Source: Burkholderiaceae bacterium (GTDB lineage: Bacteria; Pseudomonadota; Gammaproteobacteria; Burkholderiales; Burkholderiaceae). Taken from it: DNA of 29,848 bases. Positions 3,715 through 27,105 of the stretch are shown piece after piece. Each line of letters starts with the position of its first letter. Positions within the stretch are counted from its first letter, which is position 1. Where the stretch lies: contig JALREG010000314.1 of assembly GCA_023253905.1 (NCBI GenBank), forward strand, positions 1 to 29,848, written 5' to 3'. The translations under genes and the position numbers were made by a program. The notes beneath the pieces are model-generated. The model was not told the origin of the DNA. It was given only the letters and a program-made list of their open reading frames with translations, and searched no databases.

Positions 3715-3756
3715 CCTCGCCAAGGGTCCTCCGTCGGCCTGTCAGGCGAGGGAGTC
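3709..3756. terminator. Inverted repeat between convergent genes, possible bidirectional terminator
   Basis: CCTCGCC (3715-3721) and GGCGAGG (3745-3751) are perfect inverted repeats. They are extended outside by GACT (3709-3712) and AGTC (3753-3756), with a 23-base loop. The hairpin covers the stop codons of the convergent CoA-transferase and IclR genes. There is no run of T on either side, so intrinsic termination is uncertain; it may only protect 3' ends. Confidence 0.35.
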
Positions 3757-4575
3757 TGACAGTGCACGGGCCCGCGCAAGGAGATCCTCGATCAGGCCCC
3801 GGCGCGCCCGCGCGCTGTTCGATTCCCCCATTTCGGCTGCCACCAGTGCGTGTGACAGCACGCCGCCAGCATTGAAGACGGGTACGGCGATCAGCGTCAC
3901 GCCTGCGATGTAATCGCCTTCATCCAGGCTGAAGCCACGCTCGCGGACTTCAGCGACCTGCTTGAGCCAACGGCGATAGCCCGGCGCCTTCTGCCAGCGA
4001 AGCTTTCGGAACCGGGCTTCGAGTTCGCCTGGCGGCCACTGCGTGAACGCAGCCACCAGCCGCCCGGTTGCGCTGATGAGCGCGGGGAATCGGCTGCCGA
4101 CATCCACATGCAAACGAAACGGCGCCTCCGAGCGAGAGATTGCGAGCACCAGCATGTGCTCGAGTGCTGCGATTTCAACACCGATCGCCGTGACCTTCCA
4201 GCGATACGAAATCTGATCGAGTACAGGCTGCGCGAGGGCCGGGAACGGGTCGCGGGCGAGCGCGGCCCGGGCAAGTGCGGCCAGGCCATTCCCCAGACTG
4301 TAGCGACGCGTGACGGGGTCGAGTTTCACCAACTGCTCGGCCACCAGAACACGAAGAATGTGCAGACAGGTGCTGGGGACGAGCTCGAGCTGATCAGCGA
4401 GGGCCTTCACACCCATCGGTTCGGCACTTCGCCCGAGCGCGCGCAGTATCGCAACCGCCCGACTGACCGCGGGGACCGGGCGAACGCGGTCGACCGCTGC
4501 GGGGGGACCAGGTCGGACAGGGCGGGAAGGCGCCCTCGACGCGGGGGGCGGTGACGGTTGAACTTTTTTGTCCAT
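3742..4575 (-). CDS. IclR-family transcriptional regulator
   Basis: This encodes a 277-residue IclR-type regulator. After a Pro/Arg-rich N-terminal tail of about 35 residues comes the winged helix-turn-helix (roughly 36-95), with VPAVSRAVAILRAL, a recognition-helix region VPSTCLHILRVL and the wing LVKLDPVTRRYSLG. The C-terminal effector domain contains SATGRLVAAF, ERGFSLDEGDYIAGV and a final LIAVPVFNAGG segment, as in the family. Start is taken at the ATG at 4575 with a TTG two codons earlier as alternative; no clear ribosome-binding site is visible. The gene diverges from the acyl-CoA ligase operon with 99 bp between starts, so it very probably controls that operon in response to an aromatic or other carboxylic acid. 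The effector is unknown. Confidence 0.92.
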   Translation of the reverse strand: MDKKVQPSPPPASRAPSRPVRPGPPAAVDRVRPVPAVSRAVAILRALGRSAEPMGVKALADQLELVPSTCLHILRVLVAEQLVKLDPVTRRYSLGNGLAALARAALARDPFPALAQPVLDQISYRWKVTAIGVEIAALEHMLVLAISRSEAPFRLHVDVGSRFPALISATGRLVAAFTQWPPGELEARFRKLRWQKAPGYRRWLKQVAEVRERGFSLDEGDYIAGVTLIAVPVFNAGGVLSHALVAAEMGESNSARARRGLIEDLLARARALSDSLA

Positions 4576-4582
4576 ATACAAA
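4567..4582. promoter_or_regulatory. Candidate IclR operator (imperfect palindrome)
   Basis: The 16 bases TTTGTCCATATACAAA have matching arms TTTGT/ACAAA around a six-base centre. The site overlaps the regulator's own start codon and lies next to the divergent promoter. A second ACAAAT occurs at 4599. Position and symmetry fit an autoregulatory IclR site, but the assignment is inference. Confidence 0.3.
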
Positions 4583-4674: not shown

Positions 4675-6282
4675 ATGCCGCTCCTCACCGAATTCAGCCG
4701 CTACGCCGACGCGCAGCAGCACTACTCCAAAGATGCGCTGTGGGCCCTCTTCGATGGCAACCGGGAGCAGCTCAACATCGCTCACGAGTGCATCGACCGG
4801 CATGCCGCCGGAGACCGCACCGCGGTGATCGTGGTCCGCCCTGGCCAAGCTGACGAACTCCTCAGCTTTCGCCAGATCTCTGCTGATTCAGCACGCTTCG
4901 CGCATCTGCTTGCCGCACGCGGTATCAGCCGCGGCGACCGGGTGGCGGTCATGCTGGAACCTGGTCGCCTCTTTTATGCGGCGATCTTCGGTGCAATCAA
5001 ACTCGGCGCCATCGCAGTGCCGCTCTTTACGCTGTTTGGGCCCGACGGGGTGCGGCTCAGAGTGCTCGACTGCGAGCCGCGTGTCCTGATCACCGTACCA
5101 GACAAAGCCCAGGCGGTGGCTGGCATCGCCGGTCTCACCTGTCTCTACGACGACTCCGCGCTCCAGGCCGAGCTCGCGCAATGGCCCGACGTGTTTCAGA
5201 CCGACACCCGGGCGAGCGACCTCGCAATCTTTCAATACACCTCGGGAACCACCCGCGAACTGCCCGAAGCCGTGCGCCACACGCACGCCGCGCTTGTCAC
5301 GCTGATGCTGGCCGCGCTCTACGGCACGGGTATCCGTCCGGGAGACCGGTTCATGTGCCCATCCTCGCCCGCCTGGGGTCATGGCCTGTGGCACGGCACG
5401 CTCGCGCCGCTTGCGCTCGGTGTCACCATCGGCGTTTATGCCGGGAAGTTTGATGCCGCCCGGTTGCTGCAGGCACTTGCCGAACAGGGCTTCACCAACC
5501 TGTCGGCTGCGGCCACGCATTACCGCATGATGCGAAATAGTGGCGCAGCAACCCGCTACCGTTACCAGCTTCGCAAGCTCTCGTTCACCGGCGAGCCGAT
5601 TGATACCGAGACACTCCGCTTTGCCGAAGCCACGTTTGGTGCGCCGGTGTGCAGCATGTATGGCACGACCGAGATTGGGGTGGTGCTGGTGAACTACCCT
5701 GGCGCCCCCGATTTTCCGATGAAACCAGGCTCGCTCGGAAAGCCCGTGCCAGGCGGCCGCGTTGAGGTTCAGGACGCGAGCGGCCAGCCCTGTGCGCCCG
5801 GTGTCACCGGCGAACTGAAGGTCTGGCGCCGAGACCGCTGGGTGCCCACCAAAGACCTGGGACGTATCGATGAAGAGGGCTATTTCTGGCACGGCGGCCG
5901 CGCTGATGACGTGATCATTTCAGCCGGCTGGACCATGAGCGCAGTGGAAATCGAAGACGCCATTCTCAAACATCCTGACGTTCAGGAGGCCGCCGCAATC
6001 GGCGTTCCAGACGCGCTCCGCGGCAGTGTGGTGAAGGCATTCATCGTCTCCCGCCGGACGGGTGATAGCGCGTTCATCGAGGAAATCCAGACCCGGGTCC
6101 GTAACAATCTGAGTCAGCACGAGTATCCGCGGAAGGTCGTGTTCGTGACCGAACTGCCCAAAAACCCGGCAGGAAAGATCAATCGCAAAATCCTTCGTGA
6201 CCGAGAGGCGCTCGCGCATCAGACGGACGTAGCGCAGGCGAATGTGCCGCGCGCCACACCCCCCTCTTCTCCTGGAGCCTGA
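4675..6282 (+). CDS. AMP-dependent acyl-CoA synthetase/ligase
   Basis: A 535-residue adenylate-forming ligase that would join a carboxylic acid to CoA at the cost of ATP. The phosphate-binding motif A3 is at 188-205 and reads YTSGTTRELPEAVRHTH; it departs from the usual TSGTTGxPKG but still has the TSGTT core. A5 is MYGTTEIG (328-335). A7 is TKDLGRIDEEGYFW (392-405), followed by GGRADDVIISAGW (407-419). The C-terminal catalytic lysine is K501 in PKNPAGKINRK. Overall it looks most like the acetyl/medium-chain acyl-CoA synthetase branch. The start at 4675 has no visible ribosome-binding site, the upstream bases being C-rich. It is the first gene of the operon and would supply the acyl-CoA for the next two enzymes. 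Its substrate is unknown. Confidence 0.92.
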   Translation: MPLLTEFSRYADAQQHYSKDALWALFDGNREQLNIAHECIDRHAAGDRTAVIVVRPGQADELLSFRQISADSARFAHLLAARGISRGDRVAVMLEPGRLFYAAIFGAIKLGAIAVPLFTLFGPDGVRLRVLDCEPRVLITVPDKAQAVAGIAGLTCLYDDSALQAELAQWPDVFQTDTRASDLAIFQYTSGTTRELPEAVRHTHAALVTLMLAALYGTGIRPGDRFMCPSSPAWGHGLWHGTLAPLALGVTIGVYAGKFDAARLLQALAEQGFTNLSAAATHYRMMRNSGAATRYRYQLRKLSFTGEPIDTETLRFAEATFGAPVCSMYGTTEIGVVLVNYPGAPDFPMKPGSLGKPVPGGRVEVQDASGQPCAPGVTGELKVWRRDRWVPTKDLGRIDEEGYFWHGGRADDVIISAGWTMSAVEIEDAILKHPDVQEAAAIGVPDALRGSVVKAFIVSRRTGDSAFIEEIQTRVRNNLSQHEYPRKVVFVTELPKNPAGKINRKILRDREALAHQTDVAQANVPRATPPSSPGA

Positions 6283-6286
6283 AACC

Positions 6287-7426
6287 ATGTCAACGTCAGC
6301 GGAACGTTCGTTCCCGAAAATTACCGAAAGCGGCCTCGATGCGCTGCGCCGCCGCATCGGCGTCAAGATTGAAAACCAGGCTGAACCCTGGTGCCATGAA
6401 GCCACTCGCGACAACATCCGCCACTACGCTCACGGCATCGGCGACGATAACCCGCTCTGGTGCGATCCCGACTACGCGGCGGGCAGCCACTACGGCGGCA
6501 TCGTCGCGCTGCCAAGCTTTCTTTTTTCCACCAACCGCATCATCTCCGGTTACGTCGGCGGCTTGCCCGGCATTCACGCCATGTGGTCGGGCTCCGATTG
6601 GACCTGGCACCTGCCCGTGCGCCGCAATGACGAAATCCGTACCGAGTCCTGGCTTAAAGATCTGGTGCTGCATGAAACACGATTTGCAGGCCGGGCGGTG
6701 CAACAGATTTATCACGTGAATTTTTACAATCAGAAGGGCGAGCTGCTCGCTGAGGCCGACAGCTGGTGCTTTCGCACCGAGCGCGATACCGCGCGCGAGC
6801 AGGGCACCAAGTATCAGCACACGCGAGCGCGCGCTCCGCGTCGCTACTCGGCCGAAGAGATTGCCGAGGCCTACAAGCTCTATCGCGATGAGCCGGTTCG
6901 GGGCGCAACTCCTCGTTTCTGGGAGGATGTATCAGAACACGAGGCGTTACCCGTCATGCTGAAGGGTCCCATGACGGTCACCGGTTTCATTGCCTATGCG
7001 CAGGGCTGGGGGGGGCTCTACATCCGGGCCAACAAACTCGCCTGGAAGCTGATTGACGCGCATCCGGGCGTGGGCATCACCAATCGCTTCGGGATTCCCG
7101 ATGTACCCGAGCGGGTGCACTGGGAGGAAGACTTCGCGCTCGAGGTGGGCGCGCCAGGCGCCTATGACTACGGTCCCGAGCGGGCATCATGGCTCACCCA
7201 CCACCTCACCAACTGGATGGGCGACCGCGGGTTTCTGCGCAAGGCCACCTGCAAGATCCGGCGCCACAACCCCGAGGGCGACCTGCTCTACATCCAGGGC
7301 CGGGTGCTACGCAAGTTCGTGGAAAACGGAAGGCATCTGGTCGAAATCGAGCAGCAGGCTCACAATCAGGATCAGGAACTGTCGGTGCTCGGAACTGGCA
7401 TCGTGGAACTCCCCTCTCGAACATGA
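6287..7426 (+). CDS. MaoC/FAS1-like acyl dehydratase, two hotdog domains
   Basis: A 379-residue double-hotdog protein of the MaoC-like acyl dehydratase group; members hydrate or dehydrate acyl-CoA substrates. The N-terminal half (about 20-165) is FAS1-dehydratase-like, with GIGDDNPLWCDPDYAAGSHY and a later GWTWHLPVRRND-like SDWTWHLPVRRND turn. The C-terminal half contains GPMTVTGFIAYAQGWGG and a second hotdog core with HHLTNWMGDRGFLRKATCKI. Start at the ATG at 6287, with GGAG about ten bases upstream; an ATG at 6242 in the same frame would overlap the ligase gene and lacks family similarity. It follows the ligase stop by four bases and its own stop overlaps the next start (ATGA), so translation is probably coupled. 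Function beyond acyl-CoA hydration is inference. Confidence 0.87.
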   Translation: MSTSAERSFPKITESGLDALRRRIGVKIENQAEPWCHEATRDNIRHYAHGIGDDNPLWCDPDYAAGSHYGGIVALPSFLFSTNRIISGYVGGLPGIHAMWSGSDWTWHLPVRRNDEIRTESWLKDLVLHETRFAGRAVQQIYHVNFYNQKGELLAEADSWCFRTERDTAREQGTKYQHTRARAPRRYSAEEIAEAYKLYRDEPVRGATPRFWEDVSEHEALPVMLKGPMTVTGFIAYAQGWGGLYIRANKLAWKLIDAHPGVGITNRFGIPDVPERVHWEEDFALEVGAPGAYDYGPERASWLTHHLTNWMGDRGFLRKATCKIRRHNPEGDLLYIQGRVLRKFVENGRHLVEIEQQAHNQDQELSVLGTGIVELPSRT

Positions 7427-8655
7427 CCGACACCCCCCCACCCACCCTACCCGATCGACCGCCTCGCGCGCTCGAGGGCCTGCGCGTCATCGATCTGTCG
7501 CGCGTTGTCGCCGGCCCCCTCTGCACGCAGACGCTCGCCGATCACGGTGCCGATGTCATCAAGGTCGAGCCGCCCGGTGGCGATGAAACCCGCCATCTGG
7601 GCCCGCCCTTTACCGCCATCGGGTCGGCCGCCTATTTCGGCAACCTCAATCGTGGCAAGCGCGCACTTGCGCTGGATCTCACCCGCCCCGATGCACGCGA
7701 GGTGCTGCTGCGCCTTCTGGAAGGTGCCGATATCCTGGTCGAAAATCTGCTGCCCGGCACCATGGAGCGATGGGGGCTGGGCTTTGAACACGATTTGTTG
7801 CCACGTTTCCCGGGGCTGATCTACTGCTCGATCTCTGGATTCGGTCGCGATGGGCCACTGGGCGGACTGCCCGGCTACGACGCCGTCCTGCAGGCGATGT
7901 GCGGGCTGATGAGCATCAATGGCGATCCTGCGGCTGGCCCCACCCGGGTGGGCGTTCCAATCGTCGATCTGGTGACCGGCCACATGGCGGTGAGCGGCAT
8001 CCTGATGGCGGTCCTGGCACGCACCCGAACAGGTCGCGGACAGCGGGTCGAGGCAACGCTCTTCGACAGCGCACTCAGCATCCTGGTGCCGCAGGCGGTC
8101 AACTGGATGCATTCGGGCCGCGCGCCAGGACTCCTTGGCAGCGCGCATCCCAGCATTGCGGCATACGACCGGTATCGCTGCGCTGACGGCGAGATTTTTT
8201 TGGGTGTGGTCAATGACGGTCAGTTCCGCCGCTTCTGCGAACACGTCGGACTGAACCACCTGCTCACCGACCCACGTTTTTCGAACAATGCGCAGCGGAT
8301 GCAGCACCGGCCGGCGCTTCGGGAAACCATCGAGAAAACGCTCTCCGCGCGCACTCGCTATCCCCTCTGTGATGAACTGATGGCAGCGGGCGTACCCATT
8401 GGTCCGGTCAATTCCATCCCGGAGGCGTTTGCGCTCGAACATACCCGCCATCGCAAAATGGCCGTGACCGGTGAAGGCGACTATCAGAGCACCGGCATTC
8501 CGCTGAAGCTCTCGGACACTCCGGGCTCACCGGGCAAGGCGCCGCCTGCGTTTGCAGCCGACACCGACGCCATCCTCGCCGAGCACGGTTACGACGAAGC
8601 CGGGCGCGCGCGACTGAAAGCAAGCGGAGCGGTACTCGAACGGTTGCCGCGCTGA
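7423..8655 (+). CDS. CaiB/BaiF family III CoA-transferase
   Basis: A 410-residue family III CoA-transferase, which moves CoA between carboxylic acids through an aspartyl-CoA intermediate. Visible family motifs are LRVIDLSRVVAGPLCTQTLA, KVEPPGGDETR, NLNRGKRALALDL and SISGFGRDGP. Then comes LPGYDAVLQAMCGLM, where D153 is the expected catalytic aspartate. Unlike the CoA-transferase at 2620 it lacks the His-Asp racemase signature, so a true transferase is more likely. The start ATG at 7423 overlaps the previous stop by four bases; longer in-frame upstream codons lie inside the dehydratase gene and were rejected. It may recycle CoA onto the incoming acid, working beside the ligase. The acid is not known. 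Confidence 0.9.
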   Translation: MTDTPPPTLPDRPPRALEGLRVIDLSRVVAGPLCTQTLADHGADVIKVEPPGGDETRHLGPPFTAIGSAAYFGNLNRGKRALALDLTRPDAREVLLRLLEGADILVENLLPGTMERWGLGFEHDLLPRFPGLIYCSISGFGRDGPLGGLPGYDAVLQAMCGLMSINGDPAAGPTRVGVPIVDLVTGHMAVSGILMAVLARTRTGRGQRVEATLFDSALSILVPQAVNWMHSGRAPGLLGSAHPSIAAYDRYRCADGEIFLGVVNDGQFRRFCEHVGLNHLLTDPRFSNNAQRMQHRPALRETIEKTLSARTRYPLCDELMAAGVPIGPVNSIPEAFALEHTRHRKMAVTGEGDYQSTGIPLKLSDTPGSPGKAPPAFAADTDAILAEHGYDEAGRARLKASGAVLERLPR

Positions 8656-8705: not shown

Positions 8706-9662
8706 ATGAAATGGCTCGCACTGCTCGCCGTGTCAGCGGCAACCTGCTCTACCGCCGTGCAGGCGCAGGATTACCCCACCCGCCCGGTCCGAATCATCGT
8801 GGCCTACCAGGCCGGACAGGGAACCGACGTTGCAACCCGGTTCGTTGCCGAACAACTCAGCAAGGCCATTGGGCAGAGTTTCTTCATTGAAAACCGCGCC
8901 GGCGCGGGCGGCAACGTCGGCACCGCCGAGGCAGCGCGTGCTGCACCCGATGGCTACACGCTCACCATGGGCACCTCGGGCACACAGACCATGAATCCCT
9001 TTCTCTATGCGTCCACCGGTTACGACGCGGAGAAGGCATTCGAGCCCATCATTCTGGTGAGCCGCTTTCCCATGGTAATTGCCGCGGGCCCTTCGGCCTC
9101 CTTCAAGAGCGTGGCCGAGGTGCTGGCCGCGGCACGCGCCAATCCCAAGGCGGCCGACATGGCGATGCCCAGCACGACGGCACGGCTGGTGGTGGAGTTA
9201 CTGAAAGAGCGTACCGGTATCGGCCTTTTCGGCGTGCCCTACAAAGGTTCGCCTGCAGCGGCCACTGACGTGCTGGGGGGGCAGTTACCCCTCCTGATCG
9301 ACACCATCAGCGCGGCCAAACCCGGGCTCGCGAGCGGCAAGCTCCGTGCACTCGCCGTGACCTCGGCCAAGCCGTCTGCGCTCTTACCCGGGGTACCCAC
9401 GGTGGCCGAGCAGGGCGTTCCAGGATTTGATGTGTCTGCCTGGAATGCGCTCTATGCACCCAAAGGTACGCCGCCCGCCATCATCACGCGTCTCAATGCC
9501 GAAGTGTCCAAGGTGCTCGCCCAGGCCGACACGCAGCAGCGGCTTCTTCAGCTGGGTCACGAGCCAGTGGGGGGCACAGCTGCTGAATTAGCCGCCTTCG
9601 AGAAGACCGAGCGTGCAAAGTGGGAGCCCATCATCCGCAAGGCGGGCCTCAAGGCAGACTGA
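8706..9662 (+). CDS. Bug/TctC-family periplasmic substrate-binding protein
   Basis: A 318-residue Bug-type (tripartite tricarboxylate transporter, TctC) receptor. It has a signal peptide of about 20 residues ending at VQA before QDYPTRPVRIIVAY. The ligand-site loops typical of the family are seen: a glycine-rich AYQAGQGTDVATR, ENRAGAGGNVGTAEAARAAPDGYTL, and later VPYKGSPAAATDVLGGQ. It would bind a small carboxylate in the periplasm. No TctA/TctB membrane genes are in the window, as is common for orphan Bug proteins in Burkholderiales. AGGAG at 8692 supports the start. It sits between the CoA-transferase and the selenoprotein gene on the same strand, so its ligand may be the pathway substrate (inference). 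Confidence 0.93.
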   Translation: MKWLALLAVSAATCSTAVQAQDYPTRPVRIIVAYQAGQGTDVATRFVAEQLSKAIGQSFFIENRAGAGGNVGTAEAARAAPDGYTLTMGTSGTQTMNPFLYASTGYDAEKAFEPIILVSRFPMVIAAGPSASFKSVAEVLAAARANPKAADMAMPSTTARLVVELLKERTGIGLFGVPYKGSPAAATDVLGGQLPLLIDTISAAKPGLASGKLRALAVTSAKPSALLPGVPTVAEQGVPGFDVSAWNALYAPKGTPPAIITRLNAEVSKVLAQADTQQRLLQLGHEPVGGTAAELAAFEKTERAKWEPIIRKAGLKAD

Positions 9663-9678
9663 CTGAAAGGGAGTGTTC

Positions 9679-11406
9679 ATGAACCAGCTTGAGTCGGTCG
9701 TCTGGCCGCGAAGCGCCAGAACGATCACCTCGCGTCCGCTCGCGGCGCGGCTCACCTCACTGGAGGGTAAGCGCATCGCCTTCCTCTGGGACTACCTCTT
9801 CCGCGGCGACGAGATCTGGGAGTTGCTCAAAGCCGAGCTCGCCAGCCGATTTCCTGGCATCCGCTTCATCGACTGGGACCAGTTTGGTTCCACTCACGGC
9901 GAAGACGAGCACCGGGTGCTCGCCGAGCTTCCAGACAAGCTGAAGGCGCTTCAGGTCGACGCCGTCGTCTCCGGAATGGGCTGCTGAGGCAGCTGCACGC
10001 CCGCCGTGTTGCGGGTGAGCGCTGTCGCTGAGCAGGCCGGCATTCCGAGTTCATCGCTCTGCTGCGAGGGCTTCCTGGGGCAGGCCCGTACCACTGCTGA
10101 AGGGTTGGGCTATTCCAGCCTGCCTCTTGCCAAGGTCCCGGGTCACGTCGATGTGCAGCGACCCGACGAACTACGTGCGGGCGTGCTCGGCACCACCGTC
10201 AACGATCTGATTCGAAATCTCACTGAACCCGTGGTCACGGTCGCGCAAAGCCCGGATCCAGGCCCGCGAGAGATCGTCTTCACCGGCACCATTGATGAAA
10301 TCAACCGGTTTTATATCGAGAACGGTTGGAGTGACGGCCTGCCGATCGTTGCCCCCACGATGGCGCGCATTCAGGCCTTCCTCGACTTTGTTGACCGCGA
10401 CCCGGACGAGATCCTTGGCACGCTCCTGCCCGATAACCGACAGGCCACCATCTGGAACGTGGCCGTCAACGGCGTGATCGCCGGGTGCCGTCCTGAGTAC
10501 ATGCCCGTGCTGGTTGCGCTCGTCGAAGCCATGGCCGATGCGCGCTATGGTGTTGAACACAGTGGCAACACGCCCGGCGCGGAAACCCAGATCATTCTCA
10601 ATGGCCCCATCGCCCGTACGCTGGGATTCAATACCGAGCAGGGCGCGCTACGCGACGGATTCCAACCCAACACAGCCATCGGCCGGTTCTGGCGACTCTA
10701 CCTCCGGAACGTTGCGGGCTTCATGCTCCACCAGAACGACAAGGGAACGTTCGGTGGCACATGGAATGTGGTGCTCGCCGAAAACGAGGCAGTGCTCGGG
10801 CGCATTGGCTGGAATAGCGTCGCGCAAGACCTCGGCGAGCCCGCAGGGGGCAACGCGGTCACCATCTCGCGCTTTACCGGACGTAATGTGATCGTCTCGG
10901 TCTTTGGCGACAGTCCCGACAAGGTGCTGCCCTATCTGGCTGACGCCATGGTCACCCACACTACCTGGGAAGTGATCTTCGTGGTGGGGCTGGCAAACGG
11001 AACCTATCAGCCGCTACTGGTGTTGAGCCCCCTGATCGCCGAGATGCTGGCACGCGCCGGAATGTCCAAGGCCGAGCTTCGGCAGCAGCTCTTTGAGCGC
11101 GCCCGCATGCCGGCCAGGCGTTTCGAGAACCTGATGACGAACTGGACCAATCTGGTGCCGGGCGGCAGGCGGGGGCTCTTCGAGATGACCCGGCTTGGAA
11201 AGGCCCCCAAGCTATTCGGCGAGTCGCGCGATCCTGAGCGATTGGTCCCCATCGTCTGTAAACCCGAGGACATCATCATTGCCGTGTGCGGCGATCCGCT
11301 ACGCTCCAACTGCATGTTCATGCCGCATAACGGCATGCTGGGCTACACAACGGTCAAGCCGATCCGTCTGCCTGACCGCTGGGAGCAGCGGGTCGGAGCC
11401 CTTTGA
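9679..11406 (+). CDS. UGSC-family selenoprotein, read through in-frame TGA (Sec103)
   Basis: One frame runs from ATG 9679 (AAAGGGAG just upstream) to a stop at 11404-11406, broken only by TGA at 9985-9987. Read as selenocysteine, it gives 575 residues with Sec at 103 inside GMGC-U-GSCTP, the signature of the UGSC (seleno)protein family. The N-terminal domain (about 25-185) fits that family on both sides of the TGA: LEGKRIAFLWD, VDAVVSGMG, then AVAEQAGIPSSSLCCEGF. Cysteines flank Sec at 102 and 106. The C-terminal part (about 205-575) is homologous to the whole next gene, with GWSDGLPIV and AGCRPE. A SECIS-like hairpin follows the TGA and selB is nearby. The biochemical role is unknown; a selenol-based redox or reductive reaction is inference. 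A nonsense mutation is the main alternative. Confidence 0.85.
9985..9987 (+). other. Selenocysteine codon (UGA) in the UGSC motif
   Basis: The codons are ATG GGC TGC TGA GGC AGC TGC, giving Met-Gly-Cys-Sec-Gly-Ser-Cys. The triplet is in frame with coding sequence on both sides and falls exactly at the U of the family motif. Conventional gene calling would end the first gene here. Confidence 0.85.
9988..10026 (+). promoter_or_regulatory. Bacterial SECIS hairpin inside the selenoprotein gene
   Basis: The 39 bases directly after the TGA fold by hand into one hairpin with 15 pairs. 9988-9993 pair with 10021-10026; U9994 is bulged; 9995-9996 pair with 10019-10020; A9997 faces A10018; 9998-10004 pair with 10011-10017. 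The six-base loop 10005-10010 is CGUGUU. The loop begins 17 bases after the UGA and has G as its second base, matching the bacterial SECIS consensus. A bulged U and loop GU are the SelB contacts known from E. coli fdhF, though here the bulge lies further from the loop. Confidence 0.75.
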
Positions 11407-11428: not shown

Positions 11429-12631
11429 ATGAGCGACGCCCGCCCTCCGACGCACTGGCTGCTGATTCCGGTGGGCCAGCAGGCGGGTGGCGCCTGGATC
11501 GATGACACGGTGTCGGCGCGAATCGCGGAAAGCGACGCGCGCGATTTGCTCTTGGCCCGCTCGCCTCGCGTGGGCCAGTTCCCGAGACAGCGTGTGGAGG
11601 TGATCACCTCGGCCAACCCGGCCGCCGATATCAATGAACTGTACGGGGACCGGGGTTGGACCGATGGGCTTCCCATCGTCCCGCCCGAGGTGAGCGCAGT
11701 CAAACGGATGCTTCTCGGAAGTTCGCGGCCCGCGACCACTGTTCTGGGGGAGCTCGAGCCGCTTCAGGGACAGGCAACGCTAGAAAAAATTGCCGCTAAC
11801 GCAGTGATGGCGGGGTGCCGCCCGGAGCAGTTCCCGATCGTGGTCGCGGCGGTAGAGGCCTTACTCGATCCCGCTTTCAACCTGCGCGGTGTGCAGACCA
11901 CCGACGAGAACGTTGCGCCCCTTCTGGTGGTGAGCGGACCGATCGTGAAGCGTCTCGGCATTAACAGCGGATTCGGTCTACTCGGACCAGGCTGGCGCGC
12001 AAACGCGTCCATCGGTCGCGCGCTTCGGTTCGTGATGCAGAACATCGGTGGCGGCTGGCCGGGCGCTGTCTCCTATGCCGGTCTCGGGCAGGCGGCCCGC
12101 TATTCACTCTGCATTGCGGAAGATGAGACGGGCAGCCCCTGGCCATCGCTGCACACCGATCTCGGGCTGGCACCCGAGGTGAACGCGGTCACGCTGCTGC
12201 GCGCGGAAACCCTGATCAACGTCACCGGGGGATTGGAAGAAATTGCCAGCGCGATGGCCAGTGCAAGTTCAGCCTTCTCCATGCGCTGGGCAGGGATCTC
12301 CACAGTGATCCTGTCACCCGTCGTGGCAAGAATGCTCGCCGGGCAGGGGTTGGACAAAGCGGCCGTGCGTCAGATCTTGTACGAACGCGGGCGCTGGACC
12401 CCCGAGCAGTGGCGCAGTTCCTGGCTTTATCGGACCGTTGGCGACGAGACGCGATGGCCGAATTGGGTGCAGGATGCGGCTTCGCGCGGCTCGATTCCGG
12501 TCACCGCATCGCCCGACGACCTCACCCTGATCGTCGCAGGGGGCGACGTACCGGTTCCCCAGCATGCGTGGTGTCCGGCCTGGGGTTACCCAGCCTGTCG
12601 AGTCACTCGAATCATCGAGGAGAAAGGATGA
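11429..12631 (+). CDS. Paralogue of the C-terminal part of the UGSC selenoprotein
   Basis: A 400-residue protein that lacks a UGSC domain but matches residues about 205-575 of the selenoprotein just upstream. Shared blocks include INELYGDRGWTDGLPIVPPE, AGCRPEQFPIVVAAVEALLD, SGPIVKRLGINSGFG and ASIGRALRFVMQNIGG. The Cys in AGCRPE is common to both and is a candidate redox or metal residue. No signal peptide or membrane segment is evident. The start ATG at 11429 has only a weak GCGAG upstream; the previous stop is 22 bases away. Its stop overlaps the start of the flavoprotein gene (ATGA), so the two are translationally coupled. The fold and function are unknown to me. It may form a hetero-oligomer with the selenoprotein (inference from homology and adjacency). 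Confidence 0.8.
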   Translation: MSDARPPTHWLLIPVGQQAGGAWIDDTVSARIAESDARDLLLARSPRVGQFPRQRVEVITSANPAADINELYGDRGWTDGLPIVPPEVSAVKRMLLGSSRPATTVLGELEPLQGQATLEKIAANAVMAGCRPEQFPIVVAAVEALLDPAFNLRGVQTTDENVAPLLVVSGPIVKRLGINSGFGLLGPGWRANASIGRALRFVMQNIGGGWPGAVSYAGLGQAARYSLCIAEDETGSPWPSLHTDLGLAPEVNAVTLLRAETLINVTGGLEEIASAMASASSAFSMRWAGISTVILSPVVARMLAGQGLDKAAVRQILYERGRWTPEQWRSSWLYRTVGDETRWPNWVQDAASRGSIPVTASPDDLTLIVAGGDVPVPQHAWCPAWGYPACRVTRIIEEKG

Positions 12632-13545
12632 GCGGTCCGCTTGATCTGGCGGTCGTGGGTAGCGGCGTGGCAGCCTATGTGGCAGCCCTCGAGGCTGCGT
12701 CCTCCGGCATGCGGGTGTTGCATCTTGCGGGCGCCGGTCTGCCGGGCGGTCTGGTCGCCAACATCGGTGTACTCGATGACTATCCCGGCGCCCCCGCCCC
12801 GGTATCGGGAGCGGAATTGATCGACTCGCTCGGTCGTCAGGGACTTGAAGCCGGTATCGAACGGGTCGCTCAGGATGCCCAGTCACTCGAACTTGCCACC
12901 GACGGCTTCACGCTCGCGAGCAGCCACGATCGCTGGCAGCCAGCCCAGGTCATCGCCGCCACAGGCGCATCACTGAAACCGCTTTCGGTTCCCGGGGCCG
13001 AGCGCTTCGTCAACCGTGGACTGCTTCAGTGCGCCTGGTGCAACGCTGGGCTTTATCGCGGGCGGCGAGTGGTCGTGGTGGGCGGGGGCGACTCAGCCCT
13101 TCAGGAAGCGCTGCACCTCGCCCGTCACGCCGAATCGGTGGTGATGGTGGTGCGCGGCGATACGCTTCGTGCACGCCAGCGCTTTGCCGCTCGAGCCGCC
13201 GATATCGAGTCGATCGAATTCCGATGGGATAGCGAACTGTTGTCGCTTGAAGGCGCCGAGGCACTTGAAGGTGTCATGATCCGCGATCGCTACGCCACGG
13301 CGCCTGAACGCATCGACTGCGACGCGGTATTCGCCTACATCGGGCTTTCGCCTTGCGCCGACTGGCTGGGCACGCTGGTCGAGCGCGACCCGCAGGGTGC
13401 GGTCATCACCGATGCCAGCCTTCAGACGCGAACCCCCCATCTGTATGCCGTGGGTGCACTTCGCAGCGGATACTCGGGGCGGCTCGCGGTCGCGATCGGC
13501 GAGGCAACGCTGGCCGCCCAACTGGCCGCACGCGTCATCGCCTGA
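12628..13545 (+). CDS. Thioredoxin-reductase-like FAD/NAD(P)H oxidoreductase with CAWC motif
   Basis: A 305-residue flavoprotein of the thioredoxin reductase/AhpF class. The N-terminal FAD-binding motif is VVGSGVAAYVAALEAASSG (residues 9-27). A second nucleotide-binding motif, VVVVGGGDSALQEAL (148-162), would bind NAD(P)H. Between them C135-A-W-C138-N-A takes the place of the redox centre, which is CATCDG in ordinary thioredoxin reductases; the Asp that follows is Asn here. The C-terminal FAD segment TPHLYAVGALRSGYSGRLAVA is shortened and unusual, with YAVGAL in place of FAAGDV. A ribosome-binding site GAGGAGAAAGG precedes the ATG at 12628, which overlaps the upstream stop. It is the obvious candidate electron donor for the selenoprotein (inference from motif and operon position). 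Confidence 0.88.
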   Translation: MSGPLDLAVVGSGVAAYVAALEAASSGMRVLHLAGAGLPGGLVANIGVLDDYPGAPAPVSGAELIDSLGRQGLEAGIERVAQDAQSLELATDGFTLASSHDRWQPAQVIAATGASLKPLSVPGAERFVNRGLLQCAWCNAGLYRGRRVVVVGGGDSALQEALHLARHAESVVMVVRGDTLRARQRFAARAADIESIEFRWDSELLSLEGAEALEGVMIRDRYATAPERIDCDAVFAYIGLSPCADWLGTLVERDPQGAVITDASLQTRTPHLYAVGALRSGYSGRLAVAIGEATLAAQLAARVIA

Positions 13546-13582: not shown

Positions 13583-14338
13583 ATGCGCGACTATCTGGCC
13601 TGGCGAATGGCATTCGGTGTTGCGACGCCTTCGACCAATACGGTGGTTCAGCCCGAATACGACGAGATGCGGCCAGCGGGCATCACCAATCACCTCGGCC
13701 GGATGGTGATTCACGAGCGTCCGGTGAGCAGCTCTGAAGATTTCAATCAACTGGTCGAGGATATCGATCGCGCGCTCGAACCCGCCGTGGCGAGCGTCAT
13801 GGATGCAAGGCCCAATGCGTTTGTGCTCGGCATTTCTGCGCTTGCGGTGTGGGGCGGAAATACGGAGTGGGGTGAGCACCTGAAAGCCCGGATCCGCAAG
13901 GTGGCCGGACACGATATTCCCGTGGCCCTCGCCTCCGATGCGGTGGTTGCGGCGCTCAAGGCGCATGGCGTTAAACGCAGAATCGCAGTGATGGAACCCT
14001 ACTACCCCTCGATTGAGCCACGACTGCAGGGCGTGCTCGGGAGCTTTGGCTACGAGATCCTGCGGTTTAATCACATGCGGGGCAGCAACCCCGCCTCCTA
14101 TTCCGTCCTCACCGCTCAGGACATGATCCGCGCGATGAGATCGATTGACGGCGATGACATCGAAGCCATTGTTCAGTTCGGCGCGAACCTCCCCATGGGC
14201 CGTCTTGCTGACGAGGCTGAGCGCTGGCTCGACAAACCGGTGATCAGCGTGAACGTGGCCACCTACTGGCATGCGCTGCGAATGAACGGCATCACCGACC
14301 GTATCCGCGGGTTCACCCGCTTGTTGTCGGAGTTCTGA
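13583..14338 (+). CDS. Asp/Glu racemase-superfamily protein (maleate isomerase/arylmalonate decarboxylase-like), no cysteines
   Basis: A 251-residue protein resembling maleate cis-trans isomerase and arylmalonate decarboxylase. Visible features are the N-terminal FGVATPSTNTVVQPEYDEM, the middle ALASDAVVAALKAHGVKRRIAVMEPY, and the C-terminal IVQFGANLPMGRLADEAER and PVISVNVATYWHAL. Members normally use one or two active-site cysteines. Here the sequence contains no cysteine: the first site reads GISALAVWGG and the second FGANLPM. Chemistry must therefore differ, or the protein may only bind its ligand. The start at 13583 follows GAAAGGA. It is the last gene of the presumed operon, 37 bases after the flavoprotein gene. 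A link to a dicarboxylate substrate is inference. Confidence 0.82.
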   Translation: MRDYLAWRMAFGVATPSTNTVVQPEYDEMRPAGITNHLGRMVIHERPVSSSEDFNQLVEDIDRALEPAVASVMDARPNAFVLGISALAVWGGNTEWGEHLKARIRKVAGHDIPVALASDAVVAALKAHGVKRRIAVMEPYYPSIEPRLQGVLGSFGYEILRFNHMRGSNPASYSVLTAQDMIRAMRSIDGDDIEAIVQFGANLPMGRLADEAERWLDKPVISVNVATYWHALRMNGITDRIRGFTRLLSEF

Positions 14339-14352
14339 TTCGCTGTACCTGC

Positions 14353-15267
14353 TCAGACCGCCGGGTGCAGGCTACGCTCGGCAGCCTCAACAAACGAGGT
14401 ATCGATATAGGTGTCGGCGCGCATGGAACCGCGGGTGGGCAAATCTCGGATCAGGCTGCTTACCTCAATGAGGGAGCGTACAGCGGCCACCGACGGGCGG
14501 CCGTCCAATGGAAAAATGGTGTCGCGAGTGTACTCAAGCCAGGCCTGATCGGCGTAGCGGCGCTCAACACTGGTTTCGCGACAGGCCACCGCAGCGACCG
14601 CGTCCTGGTCGGCGTAAAACAGACGATGCGCGCGAATGAAGGCTCGCATGAAGCGTACTGCGGTCTCCGGGTTTTTCTGGAGCCAGGATCGCCGGGCATC
14701 CAGCGACGTAAACTGAAAATCGGGAAAGAGGTTGCGCGGGCTGCCGAGATCGGCGAAACCCAGATCGATCGCAATGTGATTCAGGGGCGCACCCTGGAGC
14801 CCGGCGTCGATCTCGCCCGAGCGCAGTCGCTCCCAGCGGGCGAGGATCGGACCGACCGCCACCAGCGTGTAGTCGGCCGGGTGGTGTAACCCGGCATCGG
14901 CGAGTAGCCGCATGACGAGCGAAGAACTGCCTGCTCGCAATGAGGACACCCCGATCGTTGCGCCCCGCAGATCGCCCACTTCGCGCACGCCTGGTCGAGC
15001 AATCAGCGAAAACGGCAGCCGGTTGACGTTACCGCCAATGATCGTGAGATCACCGCCGGATTCACGGTTGAGGAGCGTGTTCTCGGTGACATTGAGCGCC
15101 AGATCGAGCGTACCGCCCGCCAGCCCGTTGGTCACCTGATCGATCGCTTCGATCAGGTGCACCTCGAGCGACAGCCCTTCGGTGCTGAAAAACCCCGCCT
15201 CGATGCCCAGCCAGAGCGGCAGATTGAAGTAATTGCGCGAAACCGCGCCCACTCTGAGTAAGGTCAT
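14353..15267 (-). CDS. NMT1/THI5-like ABC-type substrate-binding protein without signal peptide
   Basis: A 304-residue protein of the NMT1/THI5/SsuA-like binding-protein superfamily. Typical segments are YFNLPLWLGIEAGFFSTEGL (residues about 13-32), a ligand-site stretch VTNGLAGGTLDLALNVTEN, then GVREVGDLRGATIGVSSLRAGSSS, and PETAVRFMRAFIRAHRLF near the C-terminus. The start at 15267 has AGGAGG four bases upstream, and there is no hydrophobic leader before MTLLRVGAV. Export therefore looks unlikely by the Sec route. The protein may be cytoplasmic, perhaps an enzyme or sensor using this fold. No ABC permease or ATPase gene is adjacent. It converges on the racemase-like gene (14 bp apart) and diverges from the TRAP operon. 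The ligand is unknown. Confidence 0.8.
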   Translation of the reverse strand: MTLLRVGAVSRNYFNLPLWLGIEAGFFSTEGLSLEVHLIEAIDQVTNGLAGGTLDLALNVTENTLLNRESGGDLTIIGGNVNRLPFSLIARPGVREVGDLRGATIGVSSLRAGSSSLVMRLLADAGLHHPADYTLVAVGPILARWERLRSGEIDAGLQGAPLNHIAIDLGFADLGSPRNLFPDFQFTSLDARRSWLQKNPETAVRFMRAFIRAHRLFYADQDAVAAVACRETSVERRYADQAWLEYTRDTIFPLDGRPSVAAVRSLIEVSSLIRDLPTRGSMRADTYIDTSFVEAAERSLHPAV

Positions 15268-15424
15268 GGATCCTCCTGTTTCCATCGGCGGCTACTTCCC
15301 GCCGAACGAAGCCTTCGCCTTGAATGCGCCCGGCCGGTAACCTCGAAGCTGCCGTTCGATCATAGAGGCGCAAGCGCGCTCGAGGCTGACCACGCGGGCG
15401 CTTTCCGGAAGATTGCCGCCATGC

Positions 15425-18489: not shown

Positions 18490-20532
18490 ATGAGCCTGAT
18501 CATTGCGGTGGCCGGCCATATCGATCACGGCAAGACAGCTTTGGTTCGCGCGCTCACGGGCGTTGACACAGATCGGTTGCCCGAAGAGCGCAGGCGCGGC
18601 ATTTCCATCGAGGCAGGGTTTGCCCATTGGCGCCGCGCCAATACCGACGCACCGCCCCTCATGTCGTTTGTCGACGTCCCCGGTCATGATCGGTACATCC
18701 GCAATATGGTCGCTGGGATTCAAGGCGCACGCGCGGCCCTGCTCGTCATTGCCTGTGACGATGGCGTCATGCCGCAGACCCGCGAACATGCTGAGATTCT
18801 GCGCCTGCTGGGCGTCAACGATTGGGTGATTGCCCTCACCAAGTCGGACCGTCTCGATCCGGTTCAACTCGCCGACCGTATCGCTTCGGTCCGGACATGG
18901 CTCGCGAGCGAGGCTATTGATGCCGAGGTGATGACGGTCAGCGCACACACTGGATTTGGCCTTCCCGAGCTCGCCGCTCGACTTGAGGCGCTCGCTGCGG
19001 GCGCTCATCAGATCGCAGAGCGGGTCGAGTCAGGCGCTCACGGGACGCCTGACACCGCGATCCGGCTATGTGTTGACAAGAGCTTCATCGCGCCAGGCGC
19101 TGGGCTGGTGGTCACCGGCATCCTGATGGCAGGCGTGCTGAGGATTGGTGAGACGGTCGTGGTGAGCCCAGCAGGTCATCGCGCCCGTGTACGCGGCCTC
19201 CAGGTTGCCGGCCAGGCGGTTCGTGAAGCGCGACCGGGCTCGCGCTGTGCAGTCAATCTGGCCGGCACGGGGATCGACCGACAGTCCGCAGGTCGAGGCG
19301 ACTGGATCGTCTCTAGCGAGTTGCATCAACCGATCAGCATCGTCGATGTCCAGATGCATTGGTCGAGCGGCCTGGATGACGCGCGTCCGAGAGCGCCAGA
19401 CCGGCAAGCACCGCTCCGATCAGGCGGGGCTGACCACCCGATACGACTGCCCGCGGAGGTCCAGGTCCACGCTGGAACCGCCAGGCTGAACGGGCGGCTC
19501 GCGGCGCTCTCCGTACCCGAAATCGGGGCAAGGAATCACGGCAGGTGGGCGCGGCTGCGGTTAGCTCAGCCCGTCAGTGCTGTCGTGGGCGACCGATGGA
19601 TTATTCGGGCCAGCGACGGCTTAAGTACCTTGGGGATGGCGGAGGTCGTCTGGCCTGTTGTCGCTGCCGACGGACTGCGCGGCACCGCGCATGCGGCCTT
19701 GCTTCAGGGTCTGAACCGGGACAGTCCTCAGTCATGGCTCGCCTCGGCGCTCGCCGAATTGCCTGGCGGCATGGCACCCGCGCGGTTTGCCGCGGCCTGG
19801 GCACTGTCGACCGGATCAGCAAGCGCCTGCTGGCCGGGCGCGGGCGCAGTCCTGGTACGGCATTTTGGAGAGGACGTACTGCTCGACAAGACGCGGCTGA
19901 CCGAGGTTCGCTCCGCGCTAATCGGCGCAGTCGATACCTGGCATCAACAGAATCCGCAGAGCCCAGGCGCCGATTGGAGCACATTACTGAGCGCGCTCAA
20001 CCGGCGCGATATTCGGCGCTATGCGGGAGTCGCGCTATCGGCCCTGCAGGCGCAAGGCGAACTGATGCGGCACGGCGAGCGGATCTTCAGACCAAGCCAT
20101 GTCCCCAACCCCAGCGCAGAGGACGATGCCTTCCGACAGCGCGTCCTGCCCCTGCTCGCCGAGCGGCGTTCACGATCCGTGCACGAACTGTCGGAGCTGC
20201 TGGCAATGCCAGTCGGGGAGGTACGTCGGGCGCTTGATCGCCTCGCCTTGCAGGGGTTCGCAATTGCGATCACACCGCAACGTTACCTCGCGGTTGCCCA
20301 GATCGAAGCGCTGGCCGCCACGGCCCTCGCAATCGCCCAATCGGGCCCGCTGCGGGCAGGCGATTTCAGTCGAGCCACAGGCATCGGGCGTAACCTTGGC
20401 ATTGACGTACTGGAGTTTTTCGATCGGATCCGACTCACGCGACGCCTGGGCGACCGACGGATCGTGATCGACGATCAGGCCTTGCGACGCGTGCTCAGGC
20501 CCGATGCGACGTCGGTGTTTGAAGCCGCCTGA
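18490..20532 (+). CDS. selB: Selenocysteine-specific translation elongation factor SelB
   Basis: A 680-residue SelB, the GTPase that carries Sec-tRNA to UGA codons marked by a SECIS hairpin. The G domain has GHIDHGKT (residues 9-16), switch region TDRLPEERRRGISIEAGFAH, DVPGH (62-66) and TKSD (117-120). Beta-barrel domains follow, containing GLVVTGILMAGVLRIGE. The C-terminal third has the winged helices: FRQRVLPLLAERRSRSVHEL, EVRRALDRLALQGF and the last one, GIGRNLGIDVLEFFDRIRLT, whose family counterpart binds SECIS RNA. Start at the ATG at 18490 with GGGGTGA upstream. Neither selA, selD nor tRNA-Sec is next to it. Its presence supports real selenocysteine insertion at 9985. Confidence 0.96.
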   Translation: MSLIIAVAGHIDHGKTALVRALTGVDTDRLPEERRRGISIEAGFAHWRRANTDAPPLMSFVDVPGHDRYIRNMVAGIQGARAALLVIACDDGVMPQTREHAEILRLLGVNDWVIALTKSDRLDPVQLADRIASVRTWLASEAIDAEVMTVSAHTGFGLPELAARLEALAAGAHQIAERVESGAHGTPDTAIRLCVDKSFIAPGAGLVVTGILMAGVLRIGETVVVSPAGHRARVRGLQVAGQAVREARPGSRCAVNLAGTGIDRQSAGRGDWIVSSELHQPISIVDVQMHWSSGLDDARPRAPDRQAPLRSGGADHPIRLPAEVQVHAGTARLNGRLAALSVPEIGARNHGRWARLRLAQPVSAVVGDRWIIRASDGLSTLGMAEVVWPVVAADGLRGTAHAALLQGLNRDSPQSWLASALAELPGGMAPARFAAAWALSTGSASACWPGAGAVLVRHFGEDVLLDKTRLTEVRSALIGAVDTWHQQNPQSPGADWSTLLSALNRRDIRRYAGVALSALQAQGELMRHGERIFRPSHVPNPSAEDDAFRQRVLPLLAERRSRSVHELSELLAMPVGEVRRALDRLALQGFAIAITPQRYLAVAQIEALAATALAIAQSGPLRAGDFSRATGIGRNLGIDVLEFFDRIRLTRRLGDRRIVIDDQALRRVLRPDATSVFEAA

Positions 20533-20836: not shown

Positions 20837-20959
20837 GTGGGCCTCGACCGATGTGGCCCGTCGCCCGGCAGCATTCGCGGGCTCTCGGATCGACGCCCCT
20901 GGGGTATGTAATGATTGGCCGCCACGCCCAACTCAAACCATCGCCAACCGGCCAGATCC

Positions 20960-22249
20960 ATGCAGACCTCCGTCCCGCCGTCCTCACAGACCCTGTCATC
21001 AACCCGCCCAGCACCCGGCGCCCTGTCCCGCCAGTGGCCCGAGGAAGGCTACCGGCGTGCGCCGTATTGGGTCTATACCGACCCCAGCGTCTATGCGCTC
21101 GAGCAGCAACGCATCTTTCGCGGGCGCGCCTGGCACTACGTCGGTCTTGAGGCGGAGGTTCCCGAGCCGGGAAACTACAAAACCACCTTCATCGGCGACA
21201 CGCCGGTGGTCCTTGCGCGTGCGGAAGATGGCAGTTTGCATGCGGTGGTGAACCGCTGCGCGCATCGTGGCAATCTGATCTGCCGCGAGCCTTTCGGAAC
21301 CGCTACCAAGCTCTACTGTGTTTATCACGCGTGGAGCTACACGCTTTCGGGCGACCTGAGCCATGCCGCCTTCAGCCAGGGGCTGCGCGGAGAGGGCGGC
21401 CTGCCTGCCGATTTCGACAAGACGCAGCACGGTCTTCGAAAGCTCAAAGTCGACACCCTCTGCGGGCTGGTGTTTGCAAGCTTCAGCGATGACATTGAGC
21501 CACTGGCTGGCTGGTTGGGAGAGGTGGCGCCGGGCATTCGCCGCGTGCTCAACCGCCCGCTCAAGGTGCTGGGCTACGACACGCAGCGTATTCACGCGAA
21601 CTGGAAGACCTATCACGAGAATCCGCGCGACTCGTACCACGCGAACATTCTCCACACGTTTTACGGCACCTTTGGTCTCTCGCGGCAATCGCAGGAATCA
21701 GCCATGACGATCGATCGCTCGGGTCGCCATGTTTATTTCTACACCAAGGCGGGTACCGAGAAAAAATCAACCGACTACGACAGCACTGCGAACCAGCTTC
21801 GCTCGCACAATGATCAGATGAAGCTCGAGGACCCCTCCATTCTTCGCTGGCGCGATGAGTTCGGCGATGGCATCAGCGTTCAGATCCTCAACACCTATCC
21901 CTCTTTCGTGCTCCACCAGATTGCCAACAGCCTCGCCACCCGGCAACTGATCCCGCGCGGCGTTCGGCAGTGCGATCTGGTCTGGACCTATCTTGGCTTT
22001 GCCGATGACGACGAGGCCACCACACGCACCCGACTCAATCAGACCAACCTCGCGGGCTCCGCGGGCCTGGTATCGGTGGAAGATGCAGCGGTCTGCGAGA
22101 TGATGCAGCGGGCGTTTGCCGACGGCGAAGACGGTGCGTCATTCATCGAGATGGGCGGCAAGACGCTGGAAAGTGGTGGCTCAAGCAAACTTTCCGAACG
22201 CGCGATCCGCAACTTCTGGAACGTATATCGCCAGGACATGGGACTCTGA
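20960..22249 (+). CDS. Rieske aromatic-ring-hydroxylating dioxygenase, alpha subunit
   Basis: A 429-residue large subunit of a Rieske non-heme iron oxygenase. The [2Fe-2S] cluster ligands are C100-x-H102 (NRCAHRGN) and C120-x2-H123 (LYCVYHAWSY). The mononuclear iron site is seen in ENPRDSYHANILH, with D224, H227 and H232 in the usual D-x2-H-x4-H spacing. It would add O2 to an aromatic acid or related compound. The start is placed at the ATG at 20960 because the family similarity begins soon after; an in-frame ATG at 20915 is possible, and neither has a strong ribosome-binding site. The beta subunit follows two bases after the stop. No ferredoxin or reductase gene is nearby, so electrons must come from elsewhere. 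Substrate unknown. Confidence 0.94.
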   Translation: MQTSVPPSSQTLSSTRPAPGALSRQWPEEGYRRAPYWVYTDPSVYALEQQRIFRGRAWHYVGLEAEVPEPGNYKTTFIGDTPVVLARAEDGSLHAVVNRCAHRGNLICREPFGTATKLYCVYHAWSYTLSGDLSHAAFSQGLRGEGGLPADFDKTQHGLRKLKVDTLCGLVFASFSDDIEPLAGWLGEVAPGIRRVLNRPLKVLGYDTQRIHANWKTYHENPRDSYHANILHTFYGTFGLSRQSQESAMTIDRSGRHVYFYTKAGTEKKSTDYDSTANQLRSHNDQMKLEDPSILRWRDEFGDGISVQILNTYPSFVLHQIANSLATRQLIPRGVRQCDLVWTYLGFADDDEATTRTRLNQTNLAGSAGLVSVEDAAVCEMMQRAFADGEDGASFIEMGGKTLESGGSSKLSERAIRNFWNVYRQDMGL

Positions 22250-22251
22250 TC

Positions 22252-22740
22252 ATGGATCTCGCCCTGCACCATGCCCACATCACTACCGTGTCCTGGCTGA
22301 TCGCCGAGTGGGCGCATGCCATCGATGATGACCGGGTTGAACGCATTGCCGAGCTCATGCGCGAGGACGGTCGCTACACCGTCTGCTCGCGCTTTAATGC
22401 CGACCGCGGCCTGCCACTTGCCATCATCGATACGCATAACGCAGCGCAGCTGCGCGATCGCATCCGGTCCATGCGCGTGGCGAACATCTATCAGCCTCAG
22501 CACTACCGGCATGTGGTCTCAGCAATCCAGGTCACCGGACAAACCGAGGCCGGGCTCCTTCAGGTGCGATCCGCTTTCGCCGTGTTCCGTACGCTGGTCA
22601 CCACCGGCGACACGATTTTTTTTGCAGGCGGACGCTGCGAGGATCTGGTGGACGCCAGCGGTACCGAGCCGCGCTTTGCTCGTCGCCTCATGACCTTCGA
22701 TTCGCGTGCAGTTGAAACACTGATGATCATTCCGATCTGA
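22252..22740 (+). CDS. Aromatic-ring-hydroxylating dioxygenase, beta subunit
   Basis: A 162-residue protein of the SnoaL/NTF2-like fold used by small subunits of ring-hydroxylating dioxygenases. It has the N-terminal helix with LIAEWAHAIDDDRVERIAEL, then MREDGRYTVCSRFNADRG, a DTHNAAQLRDRI segment, and the beta-sheet core VRSAFAVFRTLVTTGDTIFFAGG. It lies two bases behind the alpha-subunit stop, so the two are surely co-translated into an alpha-beta complex. Beta subunits are structural and sometimes affect substrate choice. Slightly shorter than some family members but otherwise complete. Confidence 0.88.
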   Translation: MDLALHHAHITTVSWLIAEWAHAIDDDRVERIAELMREDGRYTVCSRFNADRGLPLAIIDTHNAAQLRDRIRSMRVANIYQPQHYRHVVSAIQVTGQTEAGLLQVRSAFAVFRTLVTTGDTIFFAGGRCEDLVDASGTEPRFARRLMTFDSRAVETLMIIPI

Positions 22741-22763
22741 CCGCCCCACTTTCGGAGACCGAT

Positions 22764-23792: not shown

Positions 23793-23795
23793 GGT

Positions 23796-24338: not shown

Positions 24339-24397
24339 GGCTCAGTCCTTTGAGGGACAACGCGGTGAAGAAAATATTCGTTGAGGCAGTGCGTCAG

Positions 24398-25384: not shown

Positions 25385-25386
25385 GA

Positions 25387-26361: not shown

Positions 26362-26467
26362 CAATGTCTCCTCATGACACATTCTTGACAGATGGTAACC
26401 GCGTCGCGTCCACGCCGTACGACTTCATTTCGAACAGCGCTCGGCTCACATAAGCAATTGCGGAGCG

Positions 26468-26986: not shown

Positions 26987-27092
26987 GGTCTTCTCCAAAG
27001 TGGTGACCCACGCAGTCTACCGAGAAGCCAGCATGCCTACCGATTAGCCGTGATGGGAACCCATGAATCGCCTCATCCGCAACGGCCGACCC

Positions 27093-27098: not shown

Positions 27099-27105
27099 CG
27101 CAAAA

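Follow-up and report, generated by a model that had tools for sequence, protein, structure and literature searches.

A probable UGSC-fusion selenoprotein gene with an in-frame TGA and a divergent selB in the same gene cluster of a Burkholderiaceae contig

The 29,848-nt contig JALREG010000314.1 of a Burkholderiaceae bacterium (hereafter the window, meaning the whole stretch analyzed) carries a reading frame crossed by a single TGA. Is this codon a stop or a selenocysteine (Sec) codon and, if Sec is inserted, which factor reads it? From ATG 9679 the frame passes through TGA 9985-9987, in the codon context C-TGA-G-S-C, and runs to the next stop, TGA 11404-11406; translation table 11 breaks it into open reading frames (ORFs) at 9673-9987 (104 aa from GTG) and 10006-11406 (466 aa). 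A preliminary description of the window had joined the two stretches into one UGSC-family selenoprotein gene, with cysteines flanking the Sec and more than 460 intact codons downstream. The frame 9679-11406 is indeed open apart from the one TGA, and both the motif and the 466-aa ORF agree with that description. The gene and its parts, including a candidate Sec insertion sequence (SECIS), are:

9679..11406, + strand: UGSC-fusion selenoprotein gene, 575 codons with the TGA read through (predicted)
9985..9987, + strand: TGA predicted to be read as Sec, residue 103 in the motif C-U-G-S-C; TGA in the related loci, Cys in sense homologues
9697..10185, + strand: UGSC domain, residues 7-169 (PF24696; AF2 model Rossmann-like; VIA residues 26-188)
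10246..11403, + strand: partner domain, approximately residues 190-575; without a Pfam match; shares 30% identity with the next gene
9999..10016, + strand: predicted SECIS apical stem-loop; 6-bp stem, loop CGUGUU starting 17 nt after the UGA

Homologues were taken from a protein search (7995 candidates scored, 3439 homologues, 120 of them listed) and from a species-genome scan with alignment A1 (287 relatives; the best 80 were kept, giving 79 loci from the closest relatives only). Among the 120 listed proteins, 12 are full-length with a sense codon at the TGA position, and all 12 have Cys there. The aligned position is TGA in the best match of each of the 79 loci (79/79), whose titles name proteobacteria, actinobacteria, Chloroflexi, Rokubacteria and Nitrospinota. 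The titles Bordetella parapertussis and Klebsiella pneumoniae on the metagenome-assembled genomes (MAGs) of L003, L013 and L079, which stand among environmental ones, look doubtful. Standard annotation truncates the family as had been anticipated: 106 of the 120 listed homologues are 443-471 aa long and start after the TGA. The remaining two (861 and 888 aa) likewise lack the N-terminal part; in these proteins, P0058 and P0089, the C-terminal part of the fusion is joined to an apparent downstream paralogue, and P0089 looks frame-shifted in places.

In comparisons of the window with L001-L003, the loci closest to it in the scan, the ratio of nonsynonymous to synonymous substitution (dN/dS) is 0.056-0.087 over codons 1-102, 0.010-0.028 over codons 104-190 and 0.048-0.056 over codons 191-575, indicating purifying selection before and after the TGA. 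Neither a sense codon other than Cys among the full-length homologues nor decay of the frame, which the preliminary description had named as signs against Sec, was found. The match to PF24696 spans the TGA (residues 7-169), bearing out the earlier remark that family-like sequence lies on both sides of it; together with the TGA in all 79 loci and the low dN/dS on both sides, this means that the TGA stands in frame by more than chance. We regard the reading of 9679-11406 as a UGSC selenoprotein gene as well supported by these alignments, and what looks like a split gene probably encodes a single selenium-containing enzyme from a family that is known but uncharacterized.

Membership of the UGSC family stood by one measure and not by the other: PF24696 scores 93.3 bits (cut-off 25), while the NCBIfam equivalog NF041046 scores 46.7 bits against residues 30-168, below its cut-off of 125, perhaps because the protein is a fused and divergent form. 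A Pfam scan of the partner domain (approximately residues 190-575) matched no family, and this C-terminal part contains one invariant Cys only. A thioredoxin fold has been suggested for the UGSC domain (excerpts of PMC2398784); in our fold comparison, the rows listed are Rossmann-like and similar folds.

The strand 3' of the UGA has a fold energy of -25.8 kcal/mol (z -1.71), and its strongest signature lies at the third bases of codons 108-112 (CCC GCC GTG YTG CGG). Across the window and the 79 loci (80 rows, two of which are not Leu at the fourth codon), these bases are identical in 79/80, 80/80, 80/80, 78/78 and 80/80 cases, compared to a mean third-base identity of 0.60 (maximum 0.90) over 100 further columns in which a four- or six-fold degenerate residue is at least 95% conserved. 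A DNA alignment covering 57 of the 80 rows shows pairing in 98.8% of cells of the 6-pair stem. Its basal pair varies (GC 33, AU 16, GU 4, other 4; n = 57); changes on both sides are confined to this pair, and four stem pairs are invariant. None of 500 shuffles matched the stem in pairing percentage, both-side-changed cells or covariation score. Bacterial SECIS elements have a loop of 3-9 nt with G in its first two positions, an upper stem of 4-16 bp and 16-37 nt from UGA to loop (excerpts of PMC13188914); the hairpin conforms to these constraints, with its 6-nt loop CGUGUU (G second), 6-bp stem and spacing of 17 nt. From the near-invariant third bases of five codons and the covariation of the basal pair, we read the hairpin as a bacterial SECIS conserved as RNA. 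Rfam SECIS families gave no match in the window, either at the gathering cut-off or at E 10; in contrast, the fdhA genes of L118 and L116 match Rfam SECIS_3 at 74.6 bits.

If the TGA is a Sec codon, a decoder must be supplied, and the window encodes a candidate:

18490..20532, + strand: divergent selB, 680 aa; GTPase and last winged-helix motifs intact

Its GTPase domain, its SelB beta-barrel domain and its last winged-helix domain are all present. What is new here is that this divergent selB is kept as an extra copy beside canonical selB in the three closest relatives of the window, G001-G003 (the genomes of L001-L003, 93-95% identical). More than one selB above the cut-off was found in five of 38 genomes that hold the UGSC-fusion gene (chosen from those of the 79 loci): G001 (3), G002 (3), G003 (2), G015 (2) and G022 (3). 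Among the 43 genomes with selB in a sample of the phylum, G003 alone has more than one, although three candidates were scored per genome and extra copies could escape. The window-type selB of G001-G003 sits in the same cluster as in the window and groups with the window's gene in a clade with 100/100 support (5 rows, one gene twice), separate from the canonical selB of these genomes. The latter is located with tRNA-Sec and selA, joined in G002 and G003 by fdhA (in-frame TGA, Rfam SECIS_3); a SECIS_3 search of G001 gave no match. Each of the three genomes has a single strong tRNA-Sec, a single selA match (in G001 a partial one where the contig ends), a single UGSC copy and, above 20 bits, a single match to a model of the UGSC SECIS. 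By these counts, a single set for Sec synthesis stands alongside two SECIS classes in both G002 and G003, with three SelBs in the former and two in the latter. Two decoders would then use one tRNA-Sec in G001-G003. Identity to counterparts is 67-71% for the window-type SelB, compared to 81-98% for neighboring genes.

Two further arrangements were seen. A third selB type occurs in G001 and G002 (L115:1978-3951 and L117:2454-4406), with no tRNA or recognized selenoprotein on the stretches read. G022 (L026; L119 and L120) has two copies each of selA and tRNA-Sec plus three selB; UGSC-type SECIS matches occur on both contigs, and two of the selBs and a tRNA-Sec lie within 10 kb of a UGSC fusion.

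Sec machinery accompanies the gene more widely. selB exceeds the cut-off in all 38 gene-holding genomes, and tRNA-Sec reaches at least 65 bits in 36 of them. In a sample of the class of G003, selB is present in 6 of 143 genomes (G003 included); among 349 genomes of the phylum, it is present in 43 and UGSC in 5. Three of these five (G003, G246 and G701) combine the TGA form with selB, and G539 has a UGSC copy without the stop and no selB. A divergent selB match lies approximately 2.5 kb from the UGSC gene in G701 (contig C31).

The genes around the fusion suggest what the enzyme might work on. They comprise:

3742..4581, - strand: IclR regulator
4675..8655, + strand: acyl-CoA ligase, MaoC/FAS1-dehydratase-like protein and class III CoA-transferase; exact starts unsettled
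8706..9662, + strand: TctC/Bug solute-binding protein
11429..12631, + strand: stand-alone paralogue of the partner domain (BLASTP 7e-37, 30% identity)
12628..13545, + strand: thioredoxin-reductase-like flavoprotein with a C-A-W-C motif (PF07992, 107.7 bits; TIGR01292, 215 bits, cut-off 343)
13583..14338, + strand: arylmalonate decarboxylase / Asp-Glu racemase superfamily protein (PF17645, 46.9 bits)
14353..15285, - strand: NMT1/SsuA-like substrate-binding protein, uncertain member of the cluster; kept in L001-L003
15470..18440, + strand: DctP, DctQ and DctM of a tripartite ATP-independent periplasmic (TRAP) transporter

Directly downstream of the fusion, the partner paralogue is present in 47 of 79 loci. 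Where more than 3 kb of downstream sequence is available (70 loci), it is present in 42, and a thioredoxin-reductase-like gene is found on the same strand 1.3-4.5 kb past the TGA in 35 of these 70. Ligase and MaoC homologues are near the fusion gene in L005, L006, L008, L012 and L020; in L006, L012 and L020, homologues of the ligase, MaoC-like, TctC, TRAP and IclR genes co-occur. Positions 20915-28383 of the window encode a Rieske dioxygenase pair, two more TctC proteins, a fumarylacetoacetate (FAA) hydrolase, a cupredoxin and an amidohydrolase, and form an aromatic or organic-acid catabolic neighborhood.

The fusion itself can be placed by comparison with additional UGSC matches in the same genomes: 30 surrounding loci were taken, of which 25 were readable. 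In 21 of 23 short UGSC genes, a homologue of the partner domain is a separate upstream gene on the same strand; two of the 25 loci are fused and two have no partner (one a short locus, one ending there). The window protein thus unites two proteins that are encoded side by side elsewhere, there in the order partner, UGSC. Hairpins of these further genes occupy the same place but have different apical sequences. Two genomes show other features: G033 (the genome of L060) has 26 UGSC-family matches, with one in-frame TGA each among the matches listed, and a UGSC copy in G012 (C7:1671-2132) carries three in-frame TGAs.

Comparative analysis places the UGA at the Cys of homologues, with a conserved RNA hairpin behind it, purifying selection around it and, in the gene-holding genomes, selB throughout and tRNA-Sec in nearly all. 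On this basis we consider it probable that the locus encodes one 575-residue selenoprotein, with Sec inserted by the SelB of the cluster, that acts as a UxxC reductase recharged by the thioredoxin-reductase-like protein. The UGA would be decoded most likely by the divergent SelB, drawing on the single tRNA-Sec that would also serve the canonical (formate dehydrogenase) Sec locus. Sec103 and Cys106 would form a UxxC redox pair at a helix start in the modeled Rossmann-like domain, with Cys102 adjacent, and the pair may reduce or reductively cleave a small substrate of the organic-acid type imported through the TRAP/TctC uptake system; the nearby CoA genes suggest this substrate class. The partner domain and its paralogue may bind the substrate or build a complex, and the thioredoxin-reductase-like protein could re-reduce the enzyme. 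The reaction would be that of a thiol/selenol reductase. At a little under an even chance, we further propose one pool of Sec-tRNA with two SelBs, the canonical one for formate dehydrogenase (SECIS_3) and the cluster-borne one for the UGSC fusion, whose SECIS class has no Rfam match, such that the UGSC cluster is a catabolic module with its own stop-codon reader plugged into the Sec synthesis of the host.

Several observations weigh against this explanation. The fold energy of the hairpin is by itself weak evidence (z -1.71), and its pair count and pair-type count were equalled by 499 and 500 of 500 shuffles. Of the machinery of the window's organism, only selB is seen on the 29,848-nt contig; selA, selC and selD lie outside the view, and tRNA-Sec and selA were found in relatives only. 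G013 and G023 have selB and UGSC-TGA genes with no strong tRNA-Sec match (they may be incomplete MAGs or have a divergent tRNA), and G670 in the phylum sample has the TGA form with no selB at E 1e-60. The window's selB is approximately 8.5 kb downstream of the TGA, on the far side of a gene encoded on the opposite strand, and the fetched flanks include a selB in only 6 of the 79 fusion loci. Evolution of the window-type selB is fast (dN/dS 0.15-0.24 vs. 0.11 for canonical selB, G001/G003), though still under purifying selection. In 33 of the 38 gene-holding genomes, a hairpin of the same kind occurs with a single selB above the cut-off, and a dedicated selB is therefore not a universal requirement. 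As for the reaction, fold matches point to none, and half of the 70 loci with room for it showed no thioredoxin-reductase-like gene downstream.

Could the TGA simply be a true stop, or a sequencing or mutational error in a decaying gene? Standard annotation ends at the TGA and most listed homologues start after it, but a TGA kept in every locus across several phylum-level names, the low dN/dS on both sides and the RNA-level constraint 3' of the codon strongly contradict this, and its probability is practically negligible. Reading of UGA as cysteine has been proposed for the selC*/selB* systems of some deltaproteobacteria (Syntrophobacterales and Desulfobacterales), where a second SelB accompanies a dedicated tRNA-Cys (excerpts of PMC7609411). 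An extra SelB within one genome and Cys in homologues at this position fit such a reading. However, the selB* described in those excerpts adjoins an unusual tRNA-Cys. Searches of the window and of the surroundings of the window-type selB in L001-L003 yielded no tRNA, and in these relatives the only strong tRNA-Sec lies elsewhere. Nine of 25 weaker matches to the tRNA-Sec model in G001-G003 were checked and all are tRNA-Ser or tRNA-Leu, although an unusual tRNA could escape; matches of approximately 55 bits or less were taken as such on the strength of these nine. Two tRNA-Cys beside the checked matches carry GCA anticodons. We therefore find cysteine insertion very improbable.

The choice of decoder is closer. 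The extra SelB may serve another selenoprotein, or be redundant and drifting, with canonical SelB reading the UGSC message. This is quite possible, if doubtful: most gene-holding genomes have a single SelB above the cut-off, evolution of the window-type SelB outpaces that of its neighboring genes, and G001 and G002 have a third SelB of unassigned use. Against it, the window-type SelB is intact, under purifying selection and in the same cluster in the window and L001-L003, and each relative has one UGSC match and one UGSC SECIS match above 20 bits. The enzyme, in turn, might be no reductase at all, the selenol acting as nucleophile or ligand in an acyl-CoA-linked lyase, isomerase or transferase. 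CoA ligase, CoA-transferase and MaoC-like genes are close by, and the best fold matches of the partner paralogue are class I fumarate hydratases; these matches are weak (E 1.3e-3, TM 0.25). Class I fumarate hydratases have an iron-sulfur cluster that requires more than one Cys, and the single invariant Cys of the C-terminal part is too few for it. The UxxC motif and the thioredoxin-reductase-like neighbor favor redox chemistry, and we consider a non-reductase unlikely.

A thioredoxin reductase gene is also a neighbor of GrdB and PrdB of the glycine and D-proline reductases. PF07355, the family of GrdB/PrdB, did not come up when 67 members were scanned against Pfam at E up to 10, a search in which HMMER filters drop weak matches. 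The likeness lies in the motif, as these too are UxxC selenoproteins (excerpts of PMC13188914). With the UGSC family (PF24696; NF041046), the window protein shares the C-U/C-G-S-C motif, a domain across the Sec, alternation of Sec and Cys and occurrence in Sec-using organisms; unlike it, it is fused to a partner domain of approximately 390 residues and scores under the equivalog cut-off. One UGSC/Unknown_1 fusion was reported in 2008 from the Global Ocean Sampling study (PMC2398784). As described there, and likened by description rather than sequence, it also joins a UGSC domain to a conserved uncharacterized domain; the window fusion additionally comes with a gene cluster, a partner paralogue and a selB, none of which appears in the excerpts of that account. 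Duplicated Sec machinery is known from Photobacterium profundum 3TCK, which has two complete Sec operons (excerpts of PMC5330540). G022 is similar, whereas G001-G003 show extra copies of selB only.

The preliminary description had singled out the UGSC TGA as the strongest lead in the window. The TGA reading holds, but we judge the cluster with its selB to be more interesting: the UGSC family was already known, and the surprise for specialists is the extra, cluster-borne SelB. The fusion, the form with neighboring genes and the thioredoxin-reductase-like neighbor define an enzyme set for purification. If the clustered SelB is specific to the UGSC hairpin, it would constitute a natural second channel for Sec insertion that uses the same tRNA, and would bear on SelB-SECIS recognition and on the spread of Sec use.
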